Below, one piece after another: positions 1 to 23,888 of a stretch of 36,216 bases of DNA; the first letter of the stretch is position 1, and each line of letters starts with the position of its first letter. The DNA comes from Ignavibacteria bacterium RIFOXYC2_FULL_35_21 (GTDB lineage: Bacteria; Bacteroidota; Ignavibacteria; Kapaibacteriales; UBA2268), in contig MHAY01000088.1 of NCBI GenBank assembly GCA_001804705.1, positions 23,279 through 59,494 on the forward strand, given 5' to 3'. The notes beneath the pieces are model-generated. The model was not told the DNA's origin and searched no databases. It saw nothing but the letters and a program-made list of their open reading frames with translations. The position numbers and the translations under genes were made by a program.

Positions 1-88
1 TCGAAAGTCAAAATCGAAAGTCAAAATCGAAAGTCGAAAGTCGAAAGTCGAAAGTCAAAATCGAAAGTCGAAAGTCGTCAGTTGAAAG
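1..88. repeat. Heptad repeat array (CGAAAGT family), left edge of window
   Basis: The first bases are a run of CGAAAGT units mixed with 6-bp CAAAAT units, ending in CGTCAGT and TGAAAG shortly before the PDZ-protein gene. It is the same repeat family as the long array at 2482-2866, in the same orientation. The array is cut by the window edge, so its true length is unknown. It probably lies in the upstream region of the gene starting at 119. Confidence 0.85.
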
Positions 89-2481: not shown

Positions 2482-2866
2482 TGATAGTCGAAAGTTGTTA
2501 GTCGAAAGTCGAAAGTCATAAGTCAAAAGTCGGAAGTCGAAAGTTGTTAGTCGAAAGTCATAAGTCGGAAGTCGGAAGTCGGTAGTCGGTAGTTGAAAGT
2601 TGGAAGTTGGAAGTTGAATGTCGGTAGTCGAAAGTCAAAAGTCGGTAGTCGAAAGTTGTTAGTCGAAAGTCATAAGTCGGAAGTCGAAAGTCAAAAGTCG
2701 GTAGTCGAAAGTTGTTAGTCGAAAGTCATAAGTCGGAAGTCGGAAGTCGGAAGTAGAAAGTCGGTAGTCGAAAGTCATAAGTCAAAAGTTGGAAGTTGAA
2801 TGTCGGTAGTCGAAAGTCATAAGTCAAAAGTCGGTAGTTGAAAGTAGAAAGTCGGTAGTCGAAAGT
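2482..2866. repeat. 55-unit AGTCNNN heptad repeat array
   Basis: Starting two bases after the stop codon of the PDZ gene, 385 bp divide exactly into 55 consecutive 7-bp units with no insertion or deletion. Nearly all units end in AGT (two TGAATGT units end in TGT). The common variants are CGAAAGT, CGGAAGT, CGGTAGT, CATAAGT, CAAAAGT and TGTTAGT. Higher-order blocks such as TGTTAGT-CGAAAGT followed by CATAAGT recur, which suggests growth by block duplication. It lacks the 24-40 bp repeats and unique spacers of a CRISPR array. No ORF crosses it. Confidence 0.95.
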
Positions 2867-2959
2867 TAGAGGGTTTTTAAAGAATATGAATGGAAAAAAC
2901 CAAGGATCTATGAATGATGAGGAAATAGTTTACCATGGAAAATAAGGATTTGTTATTAT

Positions 2960-3313
2960 ATGATAATTAAAAGGTTTGAAGATATAATTGCATGGCAGAA
3001 GGCTCAGGATTTAGCTATTATCCTATATAAAGCTTTTGCTAATATAAGAGATTATAGTTTTAAAGTCCAAATATTAAGAGCAGTTGTTTCAATATCTAAC
3101 AATATAGCAGAAGGTTTTGAGAGAAATACTGATACTGATTTTTCGAGGTTTTTATTTATTGCAAAAGGTTCATGTAGCGAAGTAAAATCAATGCTGTACT
3201 TGTCTAAGAAATTAGATTATATTAATAATGAACAAGCTGAAGAATTTATCAATAAATGCACAGAATTAAGTAAAATAATCAGTGGACTAATAAAATCAAT
3301 TAAAAAACAATAA
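2960..3313 (+). CDS. Four-helix-bundle protein (23S rRNA IVP / Avd-like family)
   Basis: The 117-residue protein matches the small four-helix-bundle family first known from 23S rRNA intervening sequences and from the Avd accessory protein of diversity-generating retroelements. The hallmarks are an N-terminal FEDIIAWQKAQDLA helix, then SISNNIAEGFER at about residues 46-57 and FLFIAKGSCSEVKSML at about residues 68-83, with a helical, Lys-rich C-terminus. The length is typical of the family. It is not inside an rRNA gene, and no reverse transcriptase or template repeat is in the window. It sits alone between two inverted AGTCNNN arrays, 93 bp from the left one and 28 bp from the right one. Family members form pentameric basic barrels that bind nucleic acid in the DGR context; the role of free-standing copies is not established. 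Confidence 0.88.
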   Translation: MIIKRFEDIIAWQKAQDLAIILYKAFANIRDYSFKVQILRAVVSISNNIAEGFERNTDTDFSRFLFIAKGSCSEVKSMLYLSKKLDYINNEQAEEFINKCTELSKIISGLIKSIKKQ

Positions 3314-3341
3314 AAAAATATATAAATAATTTTTTTTTACA

Positions 3342-3446
3342 TTAGACTAAAGATTAATGACTTACGACTAATGACTAATGACTTACGACTAATGACTAAT
3401 GACTTACGACTAATGACTTACGACTAATGACTAATGACTTACGACT
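3342..3446. repeat. 15-unit heptad array, inverted relative to 2482-2866
   Basis: Fifteen 7-bp units in perfect register, mostly AATGACT and TACGACT, with TTAGACT and AAAGATT at the left end. Read on the minus strand the units are AGTCATT and AGTCGTA. They therefore share the AGTC(A/G) core with the large array on the other side of the four-helix-bundle gene but run in the opposite direction. The array ends about 20 bp before the macrodomain gene and probably carries or borders its promoter. Confidence 0.93.
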
Positions 3447-3466
3447 TATATACTTATAGATGAATT

Positions 3467-3994
3467 ATGATAAAAGATAGAATTGAAGTAGTACAAGGTG
3501 ATATCACTAAACTTAAGGTTGATGCTGTTGTTAATGCGGCTAATTCATCATTGATGGGTGGCGGCGGTGTTGACGGAGCTATACATAGAGCCGCAGGGCC
3601 AAAGCTTCTGGCGGAATGTAAAGAAATGGTAAAAAGAAACGGCAATTGCCCGACAGGTAATGCTGTAATTACAAGTGCAGGAAATATGCCTTCTAAATTT
3701 GTTATTCATACTGTTGGGCCGGTATATCGGGATGGCGAGCACAATGAACCGGAACTTCTATCTTATGCCTATATAAACAGTCTCAAACTTGCTTTAGAGA
3801 ATAAAGTTAAAACATTAGCATTCCCTAATATCAGCACAGGTATTTATGAATATCCAAAAGAAGAGGCCGCAGAAATAGCTGTTAATACTGTTATGGATTT
3901 CTTGAAAAATGACAATACAATCGAAAAGGTTATTTTTGTATGCTTTGATTATGAAAATTACGTCATCTACAACACAAAATGGAATAAGATTTAA
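3467..3994 (+). CDS. Macrodomain protein, MacroD/YmdB-type ADP-ribosyl hydrolase
   Basis: At 175 residues this is a stand-alone macrodomain. The ADP-ribose-binding signatures are all present: VVQGDIT near residue 10, [19 protein letters not shown] at about 26-44, [16 protein letters not shown] at about 70-85, and [15 protein letters not shown] at about 121-135. The arrangement fits the MacroD/YmdB class, whose members hydrolyse O-acetyl-ADP-ribose and remove mono-ADP-ribose from acidic residues. The protein has no signal peptide, so it is cytoplasmic. The ATG at 3467 is the only start that keeps the full N-terminal strand. It stands alone between a heptad array and an OstA-like gene, and the context does not reveal a substrate. 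Confidence 0.93.
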
Positions 3995-5487: not shown

Positions 5488-5508
5488 TTATAGAATTTAT
5501 ATACCTTA

Positions 5509-5570
5509 GGGGCAGAATATTTTCTGCAGGGACAGAATATTTTCTGCAGGGGCAGAATATTTTCTGCCCC
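5509..5570. repeat. Three tandem 20-bp palindromic repeats
   Basis: Three copies of a 20-bp unit (GGGGCAGAATATTTTCTGCA, with one G-to-A change in copy 2) run head to tail at 5509, 5529 and 5549. The last copy ends in CTGCCCC, so GGGGCAGAA and TTCTGCCCC make a strong hairpin in copy 3. Every copy also has the smaller CAGAA/TTCTG arms. It lies between the OstA-like gene and the T9SS cargo gene and may attenuate transcription between them. Confidence 0.9.
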
Positions 5571-12336: not shown

Positions 12337-12402
12337 CTCAGTATGACAATTATACTGTCACTCTGAGTTTATCGAAGAGTGAGTTTATCGAAGAGTGAGT
12401 TT
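12337..12402. repeat. Palindrome and 16-bp tandem duplication of GTCATTCTGAG-type element
   Basis: ACTCAGTATGACA and TGTCACTCTGAGT face each other at 12337-12369. They are followed by two tandem copies of the 16-bp GAGTTTATCGAAGAGT (12365 and 12381) plus a partial third GAGTTT. The arms belong to the same family as the elements at 13451 and 17541. The array ends about 20 bp before the radical SAM gene. Confidence 0.75.
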
Positions 12403-12420
12403 AACAATATGAAATAAATT

Positions 12421-13676: not shown

Positions 13677-13995
13677 CTATTTTTCAAGAATAATTTGCTC
13701 GAAATTTTTCAATTGATTTTTTGTTCCAAGTAAAACAATCTGTATAAAAAATACTGTTATATAGAATGCAAGAACATTTGTAGTTAGGGTGTTAGACTGG
13801 TAGGGTGTTAGACTGGTAGGGTGATACATTTAAATCTTTCCATAATATGGAATAACCAATGACACCGGAGAGCATGACCACAAGAAACAACATCCCGGGA
13901 AGAATAGGTATTTTCAGATTTGGTTTGGTTTCCAAATATAGTTTATCCACTATATTTTTGTAATGATGTCTTCCCTTATGCTTCATCAGTCTCAT
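13677..13995 (-). pseudogene. Small two-TM membrane protein gene frameshifted by a 16-bp duplication
   Basis: The frame starting at the ATG at 13993-13995 reads 67 codons: a basic N-terminus (MRLMKHKGRHHYKN), a membrane segment (IPILPGMLFLVVMLSGVIGY), then a stop inside a 16-bp tandem duplication (units at 13785-13800 and 13801-13816). If one 16-bp unit is removed, the frame continues to a stop at 13677-13679. That adds a second membrane segment (VLAFYITVFFIQIVLLGT) and a charged tail (KNQLKNFEQIILEK), for 100 residues in all. The restored frame makes good protein sense on both sides, so the duplication probably broke, or reversibly switches, a real gene. It would be transcribed divergently from the glycosyltransferase at 14089. 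No family was recognised; the VIGYSILW end of the first segment slightly recalls two-TM ion channels, but no selectivity filter is present. Confidence 0.55.
13785..13823. repeat. 16-bp tandem repeat, two copies plus 7 bp
   Basis: TAGGGTGTTAGACTGG occurs exactly twice in tandem (13785, 13801), followed by a partial TAGGGTG. Because 16 is not a multiple of three, copy number changes the reading frame of the minus-strand gene it lies in. Confidence 0.97.
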
Positions 13996-21344: not shown

Positions 21345-21461
21345 TCAATTACGAATTATGAATTACGAATTACGAATTTAAATTTATAAACAATTTCATT
21401 CATCAATTTGCATTCTACATTTTGCATTCTGCATTCAACACTCAACATTCAAAACTCAAAT
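21345..21461. repeat. Composite heptad element, copy 1
   Basis: The element starts ATCAATTACG right after the stop codon, continues as AATTATG/AATTACG heptads, then an AATTTATAAA spacer, then CATTCTA, CATTTTG, CATTCTG and CATTCAA heptads, and ends with CACTCAA/AACTCAA abutting the stop codon of the minus-strand regulator. It fills the whole gap between two convergent genes. Confidence 0.85.
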
Positions 21462-22658
21462 CTATTCTCTGACAAACAACAGTCCTAATATTGGGTCGGA
21501 AGAGTTATGAGCAACAATTTTATCAATTAATGACCCATTCAAAACAGCACCTGCAGAAACTATTTTTATACCAGAGTTTGTATATACATCTCTGGTCAGG
21601 GACATACCCTCCAGCATTTCATTCAGCATAATTGCTTTTTCTTTCAGAATGCCTTCAATACCACCCCTCGAGGCTATGTATTGCTCCATCAATATAACAA
21701 CCCTTTGGTCATAAAGCCGTTTGGATTCTGTATGCAATTTCTCAATAATCGTTTGCGGCGGTATTTTCCTGAATGCCCTTAATTCCTCATAATCAAGTGC
21801 TACTCTGATTATCCTGGAACCTATAGGTATCTGCCATGATTTTATATGTTCGGGAATACCGGACCCGTCAAAATTTTCATGGATATGATATAAAATTTTT
21901 GCGGCCTGTTTTAATATTCGCGCCGAAGAAAGTATCTCATGGGCAAAAACAGGAACCTGGTACATTAAATTGTTAGAAGGGACACCATCTACAAGAACCT
22001 GTGTTTTTAACATTGTATCGGGTAAGAAAATTTTCCCTGTATATGATAGTAATGCGGCAGTTTCAATATCATAAATCTCATCTTCTTCAATATCACCAAA
22101 ACTAATTGCTATCCACTTTGATGCCTCGGAGATGCGCCTAAACATTTCCAAAGAAGCAGGAAATCTCGACTGACAAAATTTAAGTGATAAATTCAGAAAA
22201 TCTTTAATATCCTGCTGAAGCTGGTCTGCTATATCATGAACCAACTGGCTATCGTCTGTCATTTTATTCTGCAGTTCTATTATCCTGAATGCAACACCCA
22301 GCTTAGTTTTTAATTCCTCTTCGACGAACGGCTTGTTGATAAAATCATCGGCACCTTCCTGCAAGGCAAGAGACCTTTGTGCTTTTTCCACAATAGCAGT
22401 TAAAATAATAAAATAAGTTTCTTTAAACTCACTCACTTCTCTAAGCTTTTTGCAGATTTGAATTCCATTCATTCCCGGTATATTCAAATCCGAAATTATC
22501 AACTTCGGTTTATTATTAACAACTATCTCCCATCCGTCCCAACCGTCCTCAGAAACAAAAATCAGTGCCTGTGGAAATGATTTGGCAATGATAGCCTTCA
22601 AATACAACACAAGCGTCTTGTCTTCAATTATAAGCAATATTGGTACTGACTCTTCCAT
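21462..22658 (-). CDS. Response regulator with degenerate HD-GYP-like output domain
   Basis: The frame extends to a TTG at 22664, but the ATG at 22658 is preferred (398 residues). Residues 5-125 form a CheY-like receiver with LLIIED, phospho-acceptor Asp57 in IISDLNIPGMNG, and NKPF as the conserved Lys. Residues about 190-330 align by eye with HD-GYP phosphodiesterases: LSYTGKIFLPD stands where LLHDIGKIGIPD is expected, and HENFDGSGIPEHIKSW where HHExWDGxGYPxGLKG is expected. The HD dyad is therefore SY and the GYP is GIP, so cyclic-di-GMP hydrolysis is unlikely; binding or a partner role is possible. The last 60 residues are unassigned. It lies directly downstream of motAB in the same direction, which suggests a motility link. 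A composite heptad element ends 3 bp before the ATG. Confidence 0.85.
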   Translation of the reverse strand: MEESVPILLIIEDKTLVLYLKAIIAKSFPQALIFVSEDGWDGWEIVVNNKPKLIISDLNIPGMNGIQICKKLREVSEFKETYFIILTAIVEKAQRSLALQEGADDFINKPFVEEELKTKLGVAFRIIELQNKMTDDSQLVHDIADQLQQDIKDFLNLSLKFCQSRFPASLEMFRRISEASKWIAISFGDIEEDEIYDIETAALLSYTGKIFLPDTMLKTQVLVDGVPSNNLMYQVPVFAHEILSSARILKQAAKILYHIHENFDGSGIPEHIKSWQIPIGSRIIRVALDYEELRAFRKIPPQTIIEKLHTESKRLYDQRVVILMEQYIASRGGIEGILKEKAIMLNEMLEGMSLTRDVYTNSGIKIVSAGAVLNGSLIDKIVAHNSSDPILGLLFVRE

Positions 22659-22662
22659 ACTC

Positions 22663-22831
22663 AATCAATTACGAATTACGAATTACGAATTAGAATTTAT
22701 AAATATTATCCAATTTCATTCCCTCATTTTGCATTTTACATTCAGCATTCAACAACAAACACTCAACACATTACATTTTATATTCAATCATATATCCGAC
22801 ATTCGTAATTCGTAATTCGTAATTCGTAATT
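22663..22831. repeat. Composite heptad element, copy 2, with inverted AATTACG ends
   Basis: Three AATTACG units at about 22665-22688 are followed by the spacer AATTTATAAATATTATCC, CATTTTG/CATTTTA/CATTCAG/CATTCAA and CACTCAA heptads. Unlike the other copies it then ends in four AATTCGT units (22803-22831), the reverse complement of the opening units, running into the motB stop codon. The two ends could pair as a stem of more than 20 bp. Confidence 0.85.
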
Positions 22832-23754: not shown

Positions 23755-23888
23755 CAATTACGAATTATGAATTACGAATTATGAATTAAAATATATAAAT
23801 ATTATCCTATTCCAATCTACATTCTACATTTTACGTTCTACACTTTTCATTTTACATCCAACACTCAAAATTCAACACTCAAAACTTC
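23755..23888. repeat. Composite heptad element, copy 3
   Basis: ATCAATTACG then AATTATG/AATTACG units, the spacer ATATATAAATATTATCC (nearly identical to copy 2), CATTCTA/CATTTTA/CGTTCTA heptads, and CACTCAA, AATTCAA, CACTCAA, AACTTCC at the end, reaching the motA stop. It occupies the full motA-motB gap. Confidence 0.85.

Follow-up and report, generated by a model that had tools for sequence, protein, structure and literature searches.

What a free-standing gene of the IVP family is doing between two long, oppositely oriented arrays of 7-bp units (heptads) is the question raised by this locus, which lies in a 36,216-nucleotide stretch of the genome of Ignavibacteria bacterium RIFOXYC2_FULL_35_21 (the whole stretch is called the window below). 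An earlier note on this DNA had suggested that the gene and its arrays may be one unit, with the protein binding the repeats or the arrays serving as the ends of a small mobile unit. The suggestion was to fall if heptad arrays were no more common beside this family than beside other genes and if no empty sites indicated that gene and arrays move together. The features concerned are listed in Table 1.

Table 1. Features of the IVP locus and its neighbours, in window coordinates.
Feature	Position	Strand	Details
Upstream host gene, 786 aa	119–2479	+	Weak PDZ match, under the Pfam cut-off; left flank in the empty-site comparison
Left (upstream) heptad array	2482–2866	+	55 units, core AGTC/AGTT + 3 bases; starts 2 bp past the stop of the 786-aa ORF
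IVP gene (23S_rRNA_IVP / four helix bundle protein, 117 aa)	2960–3313	+	PF05635 4.7e-33; TIGR02436 5.9e-33
Right (downstream) heptad array	3342–3446	-	15 units; AGTC core reads on the other strand, in inverted orientation to the left array
Downstream host gene, macro-domain (ADP-ribose) family	3467–3994	+	PF01661 2.9e-48; right flank in the empty-site comparison

The two arrays and the encoded protein

The arrays are 385 and 105 bp long (55.0 and 15.0 units), and their positions and unit counts, like the position of the ORF, are those read in the earlier note. TRF gives 0% indels at a period of 14 bp for the left array and at periods of 7, 21 and 35 bp for the right one; the 56-bp row on the left has 4%. 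Among 54 whole units of the left array, 52 start with AGT (39 AGTC, 11 AGTT), and 14/15 units of the right array start with AGTC in reverse complement. The inverted arrangement of this core, also part of the original description, is reflected in the alignment scores: the score of the left array is 52 when the right array is reverse-complemented and 8 when it is taken as written, and shuffled versions of the right array reach a mean of 12 and a maximum of 22. A lag scan of the window (threshold 15) returned 10 arrays at lag 7, none at lags 4–6 and 8–12, and 0.0 in shuffles; lag scans and shuffles together rule out chance or low complexity as the origin of the arrays. Matches to the AGTC heptad pattern are spread over many contigs of the genome, 65 of them forward and 66 reverse, and a reversed control pattern has none. 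Further TCGAAAG/AGTC heptads, of the left-array family, occur upstream of the 786-aa ORF at window positions 1–88 and just ahead of the window (contig C88, 23002–23089), where no IVP gene was found. Tandem repeats of other periods also lie between window ORFs, at 5508–5567 (20 bp), 12364–12403 (16 bp) and 13785–13823 (16 bp).

The encoded protein scores 114 bits against PF05635 (cut-off 33.8) and 113.3 against TIGR02436 (cut-off 24), which establishes the family membership assigned to it earlier. PF05635 is its sole Pfam match at E ≤ 0.001, and family matching with Pfam and TIGR02436-type models found no catalytic domain and no transposase family. Its fold is inferred from solved chains that it matches in sequence, without a predicted structure; the solved relatives are 2gsc (XCC0516) and 2rld, with five chains each, and in passages of PMC4990558 the Xanthomonas campestris protein is said to be a homopentamer whose subunits are four-helix bundles. 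The genome contains 17 PF05635 matches, 15 of them above the curated cut-off, and PF05635/TIGR02436 is present in 229/294 sampled genomes of the class. No assigned role was found for free-standing members of PF05635/TIGR02436. Eighteen IVP genes are reported from cas loci in passages of PMC3936711, one of them sitting between cmr3 and cmr2, a position that fits insertion between adjacent genes.

Heptad arrays beside IVP genes

In the genome that contains the window, a period-7 array lies within 150 bp of 13/17 IVP genes, as against 43/204 control ORFs from 20 arbitrary stretches (Fisher 5.7e-6), and arrays lie on both sides of 6/17 IVP genes and 4/204 control ORFs (Fisher 1.4e-5). In this count an array could overlap the gene start by 60 bases for IVP genes and by 30 for control genes, several of the arrays score only slightly above the threshold, and four IVP genes have none (L010, L019, L020, L024). 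A second set of named genomes comprised the best 80 loci of a longer list, obtained with an alignment built from IVPs only distantly related to the one in the window. Here 42/80 IVP loci have an array within 150 bp, compared with 42/590 neighbouring ORFs of the same loci, and 21/80 have arrays on both sides, compared with 4/590; the permitted overlap was 40 bases for IVP and control genes alike. At a stricter threshold the counts are 26/80 (any side) and 5/80 (both sides) for IVP loci, and 13/590 and 1/590 for neighbouring ORFs. Control genes for these loci, in the array and the flank comparisons, were excluded if centred less than 1,200 bp from the IVP gene or near the locus ends. No array was detectable at the threshold at 38/80 loci. 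The period is specific: a lag scan of the 80 loci found lag 7 at 41, its multiple lag 14 at 30, and any other lag between 4 and 13 at 0 or 1.

By their record titles, the array-bearing loci belong to Bacteroidetes, Ignavibacteria, Cyanobacteria, Verrucomicrobiota, Clostridia and Oscillospiraceae, Epsilonproteobacteria, Rickettsiales, a gammaproteobacterium, Nitrospira, Cloacimonadota, KSB1, a Kuenenbacteria genome and Thermoflexus. These comparisons show that heptad arrays and IVP genes co-occur far beyond the level of control genes in many phyla, as the enrichment test outlined in the earlier note required. Two control families were drawn from the same class. ParE-toxin genes have arrays at 0/27 loci by every measure (3/30 loci were left out for want of an ORF), and Y1_Tnp loci have heptad arrays at 0/20; in both families the ORF was picked by overlap with the match and not by frame. 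Array enrichment as a trait of any small, laterally moving gene is ruled out by these two results. A need for a reverse transcriptase or a Y1 transposase is likewise ruled out, by IVP-rich genomes without detected copies (G033, with 8 IVPs, 0 RVT_1 and 0 Y1_Tnp; G082, with 11 IVPs and 0 Y1_Tnp).

The inverted arrangement extends beyond the window. When the 140-base flanks on the two sides of the gene were compared (79/80 loci of the named genomes), a similarity of at least 18 was reached in inverted orientation at 42/79 loci and in direct orientation at 11/79, with 17/622 neighbouring genes inverted; flanks mixed between loci reach an inverted score of at least 18 in 9% of cases. In a class-wide set (the top-scoring PF05635 matches among 294 genomes of the class), a score of at least 16 was reached by 16/27 loci inverted and 1/27 direct; at the same score, the flanks of Y1_Tnp loci are inverted in 6/20 and direct in 6/20, with REP-kind palindromes among the matches listed. 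This second flank comparison used 27/28, 24/27, 17/17 and 80/80 loci of its sets, the omissions from the set of 27 being two fragments that could not be placed (L059, L069) and one locus too close to a contig edge. In the first comparison, that of the named genomes, the direct score exceeds the inverted one in 5/50 loci listed (L096, L100, L126, L127, L130). The matched inverted stretch has a median of 32 bases per locus (IQR 28–39); its length is shaped by the score cut-off, and its closeness to five heptads is only suggestive. As judged from these alignments, the two arrays of one locus are shown to tend towards a common, locus-specific heptad in inverted orientation. At L048 and L062 (G007:C80), two IVP genes stand 0.8 kb apart with CACCAAT arrays of several hundred bases in a single orientation, an exception to the inverted rule.

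The heptads themselves vary by locus even within the one genome (AGTCGAA, GGAAGCC, AATTACG, GTTGAGT, ACTATTC and others). When 121 arrays (79 loci) were aligned by phase without supervision, a shared core of A (.91), R (.95) and T (.93) emerged, followed by predominantly T or G, two free positions and predominantly G or A, with C rare. The profile of upstream arrays agrees with that of reverse-complemented downstream arrays, and 37/60 downstream arrays fit the upstream profile better when reversed. Because AATT is palindromic, the core alone gives only a weak orientation, and orientation therefore rests on the flank alignments. The AGTC heptad of the window keeps ART and does not keep the fourth base of the profile, which favours the reverse strand of the left array. 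Similar IVPs go with similar heptads (Mantel r = 0.43, p 0.0005; corrected for GC, 0.42, p 0.001), and the GC-corrected correlation is 0.28 for pairs below 50% identity. The Mantel set comprised the 82 loci with a detectable array out of 163 intact IVP proteins, and it includes orthologous loci, so that descent contributes to the correlation. With that qualification, array sequence is shown to track IVP sequence.

Orthologous sites and arrays without genes

The macro-domain gene downstream of the window arrays has matches in 4/4 genomes of the genus, and the site differs among them. It is intact in G000, with 55 and 15 units and the IVP gene. In G003 the flanks are the same, a short AGTC (AGTCGAT) array lies directly at the upstream stop codon and the IVP gene has an in-frame stop; a short inverted array ahead of the macro-domain gene was seen by eye only, having been missed by the detector. 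G001 has both arrays, no IVP gene and a different upstream neighbour. In G002 the same two genes stand 90 bp apart, with no IVP gene and no array at threshold 13. At this orthologous site in G001 (L254, reverse complement 1180–1480), an unrelated ORF enters the heptad array in frame, which suggests a rearrangement with a breakpoint inside the array.

The second site compared lies beside a gene that is presumably Ogg-like. Related IVPs (94/110 residues) with AATTACT/AATTAGT arrays are found there in G001 and G003 (L064/L065) in opposite orientations; both flanks match, and the IVP of G001 has an in-frame stop. In G000 and G002 the site has no IVP gene and about two heptad-like units. In the genus labelled g52, one pair of related IVPs (L233/L249) is reversed relative to one common flank, the other flank being unmatched. 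At another g52 site, both flanks are common to L241/L250 and L242, whose IVPs (27/96 identical residues) and heptads are different; the spacers that hold the downstream arrays differ by 35 bp between L241 and L250. At L251/L252 in the same genus, one shared gene has IVP gene and arrays on one side in the first locus and on the other side in the second; at the reciprocal junctions, inspected by eye, neither genome has an IVP gene or arrays at the position of the other.

Gene and arrays are thus shown, as far as aligned junctions can tell, to be jointly present or jointly absent at some orthologous sites, and the empty-site test that the earlier note had called for is met at the window site of G002 and, by eye, at both L251/L252 junctions. 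The same alignments show that the orientation of the IVP gene between its arrays varies between species and that one site can hold a different putative cassette. They also show that arrays change in their number of units and occur without the gene where relatives have it. Most compared sites in g52 are conserved between species, and movement would therefore be rare. The flanks of empty sites are only about 67–82% identical, so that insertion and old loss cannot be separated in every case; for the same reason, target duplication, which together with a transposase would mark a classical IS or MITE, is undefined at these sites.

Arrays without a gene are also frequent at the genome scale. Sampled stretches of 14 IVP-free genomes contain 0 arrays in 484,471 bp, those of 21 other IVP-bearing genomes 18 arrays in 823,368 bp, and those of the genome with the window 38 arrays in 312,240 bp. 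Within its own family the counts are 0 arrays in 211,832 bp (6 IVP-free genomes) and 10 in 280,564 bp (5 IVP-bearing genomes). Array number correlates with IVP copy number (Spearman 0.47, p 0.0035). The genomes were hand-picked, the IVP-free ones all come from the same order as the window, and part of the copy numbers derive from at most 15 candidates scored per genome. No array was found in the sampled stretches of 13/22 IVP-bearing genomes, for which there is little sequence per genome. All 38 sampled arrays of the window's genome lie away from any IVP gene, and over all IVP-bearing stretches 3/56 lie near one; in the 21 other genomes, the stretches include three IVP frames, and 3/18 arrays are at two of those frames.

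Ten neighbouring array pairs less than 500 bp apart were found in the genome of the window, its own IVP locus included. Three are clearly convergent and gene-free (window 21347/21411, window 23756/23813 and L031 9041/9150), and six include an array of undecided strand. Three gene-free stretches between non-IVP ORFs of the window (21347–21462, 22667–22831 and 23756–23885) have an AATTACG array at one end and, by eye, opposite-strand CATTNNN- or ATTCGTA-type heptads at the other, and are possible cassette remnants or REPIN-like units. A period-7 array of about 290 bp and CCACTTC type has no IVP gene nearby (L045 7425–7715, G000:C30). At L014 (G000:C71), an IVP gene with AATTACG/AATTCGT arrays stands between two stretches that, by eye only, resemble tRNA genes. 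In RAYT/REPIN systems, REPINs outnumber RAYTs. The surplus of arrays over IVP genes in this genome may be of that kind, or the arrays may have an additional means of spreading; the orphan arrays are not explained by the tests run.

A proposed cassette, its rivals and known systems

The observations are probably best explained if the gene and its two arrays form a selfish cassette, mobile or formerly mobile, with the arrays as its ends and probably as binding sites of the protein; there are no data on binding or movement. The first proposal, that the gene makes up one unit with its inverted arrays, is supported by the enrichment and by the empty sites, and neither of the results that would have refuted it occurred. 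The predicted layout is (ARTNNNN)n, the IVP gene and an inverted (ARTNNNN)n, in which the arrays would serve both as cassette ends and as IVP binding sites. A single pentameric ring might contact one array, each subunit taking roughly one heptad, an inference drawn, without any test of oligomers, from the homopentameric relative and from a median matched stretch close to five heptads. Bound rings could then pair both ends, or hold the ends as hairpins in single-stranded DNA, and replication and recombination enzymes of the host would cut and join, thereby moving or copying the cassette. Cutting and joining are assigned to the host because no catalytic domain was found in the IVP protein. Once inserted near the end of a gene, the cassette might be lengthened, flipped or deleted by slippage and by recombination between its arrays, and orphan arrays would remain. 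Of the 27/80 loci measured, 24 have an upstream array that begins no more than 25 bp from the edge of the preceding ORF; among the 23 with this ORF on the same strand, where the edge is a stop codon, the number is 21. Insertion thus seems to favour gene ends, for which there is no control set.

Several other readings could account for parts of this evidence. In an RNA-level unit, the transcribed arrays would base-pair into a stem for RNase III to cut, the insert would be taken out or insulated, and the protein would protect or bind this RNA. Such a unit would share the architecture of the Coxiella intervening sequence, inverted repeats with an ORF in the loop (as given in passages of PMC4990558), and the frequent position of arrays at the edge of the upstream ORF makes co-transcription likely. 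Selected pairing should favour G-U, however, and the mismatches between arrays comprise 114 of G-U type and 117 of A-C type (116/178 loci passing the score, orthologues included). The missing bias speaks against selection for an RNA stem; an RNA role is not favoured, and this reading is considered unlikely. The arrays could also be older, hairpin-like intergenic repeats into whose loops IVP genes home, which would make them targets and not parts of the element. That IVP-less sites can lack arrays altogether (the window site of G002 and both L251/L252 junctions), that the sampled stretches of IVP-free genomes have none and that array sequence follows IVP sequence all weigh against such homing. 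It would nevertheless suit the three clear gene-free convergent pairs among ten and, in G000 and G002, the roughly two heptad-like units of the L064-type site, and it remains a quite improbable reading.

An operator, with the arrays as binding sites that control the IVP gene and no mobility, would fit the array beside the start codon at many loci, and a correlation between protein and array suits any binding role. The inverted downstream array, the opposite orientations, the exchange of cassettes and the empty sites would all be unexpected on such a model, which appears very unlikely. Neutral slippage, by which the arrays would be chance microsatellites near the gene, is contradicted by the enrichment, the inversion, the common core and the control families and is scarcely credible as a full explanation; it may still account for changes in array length, which occur by whole units (35 bp in the L241/L250 spacers).

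The selfish, heptad-ended cassette thus remains the preferred reading, and a wider form of it may be put forward only tentatively, as a possibility that is open to doubt. The IVP four-helix bundle would then be the dedicated mobility or array-building factor of heptad-ended elements throughout bacteria, a non-catalytic pentameric ring with one heptad per subunit that recruits host enzymes. Such elements would be the hidden source of the intergenic heptamers of cyanobacteria, Xanthomonas, Beggiatoaceae and Bacteroidota, and 23S intervening sequences would be their rRNA-inserted branch. The surprising part is that the ends of the proposed cassette are heptad arrays, across many phyla. Inverted, locus-specific arrays provide a concrete candidate substrate for a widespread protein family and join it to two old puzzles, the 23S intervening sequences and the heptamer repeats of bacteria. 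All three become testable questions on one protein and one short oligonucleotide, and IVP cassettes may account for some of the puzzling 7-letter repeats in bacterial genomes.

Avd, the accessory protein of diversity-generating retroelements (DGRs), is pentameric. Unlike the DGR arrangement, the window locus has no linked reverse transcriptase: the single RVT_1 match found in its genome is on contig C61 and the window on C88, so that the DGR criterion of a linked reverse transcriptase is not fulfilled. RVT_1 occurs in 13/61 sampled genomes and in none of the IVP-rich G064, G085, G067 and G033. Passages of PMC10053308 describe Avd as a homologue of PF05635 proteins that is essential to retrohoming.

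Heptamer repeats, which resemble the window arrays in their period of 7 and their intergenic position, have been described in Beggiatoaceae (TAACTGA), Xanthomonas (GGGAATC), Nostoc/Cyanobacteria and Bacteroidetes (passages of PMC4692102 and PMC4679880). In X. campestris there are 70 convergent inverted heptamer pairs, alongside which the authors generally did not find mobile elements (passages of PMC4692102). No link between IVP and heptamers is made in the passages of these two papers, and their main texts, without supplements, contain neither ‘four helix’ nor ‘23S’ (PMC4679880) and neither ‘xcc0516’ nor ‘four-helix’ (PMC4692102). Among the matches listed in titles and abstracts, which do not cover subscription papers and preprints, none ties free-standing IVP genes to heptad arrays. 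The nearest published observation, from passages of PMC4990558, concerns heptamers beside the S23p ORF of one rRNA-embedded intervening sequence. The stem of this Coxiella 23S element is an inverted repeat of 28 bp, and its S23p (IVP) ORF is preceded by tandem heptamers whose number varies between strains; the same passages term it a selfish element and quote hypotheses of mobility.

The 23S intervening sequences with an S23p/IVP ORF (Coxiella, Leptospira and others) share with the window locus the protein family and an ORF within terminal inverted repeats, a criterion that its arrays fulfil by their inverted score. Unlike them, the window cassette lies between protein genes, and no Rfam match at gathering score was found in the 36-kb window, so that the criterion of a position inside an rRNA gene is not fulfilled. 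Its ends, again unlike theirs, are both heptad arrays, of up to 55 units, and there are 17 family matches in the genome. L055, an IVP locus with 23S motifs nearby, was rejected as a 23S insertion because it sits after a 5S gene and not in the 23S gene. RAYT/REPIN systems, as presented in passages of PMC3116915, likewise have a gene flanked by short repeats and coevolution of protein and repeat; their repeats also occur as gene-free inverted pairs, which in the genome of the window are clear in 3 of the 10 neighbouring array pairs and undecided in 6. RAYTs are, however, Y1 tyrosine transposases and REPs single palindromes, whereas the IVP is a four-helix bundle and its repeats are tandem heptads; the criterion of a Y1 tyrosine transposase gene is not fulfilled by the window protein. 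The window cassette is best read as a free-standing version of the IVS/IVP kind of selfish element, RAYT/REPIN-like in its working without being a member of the RAYT/REPIN group.
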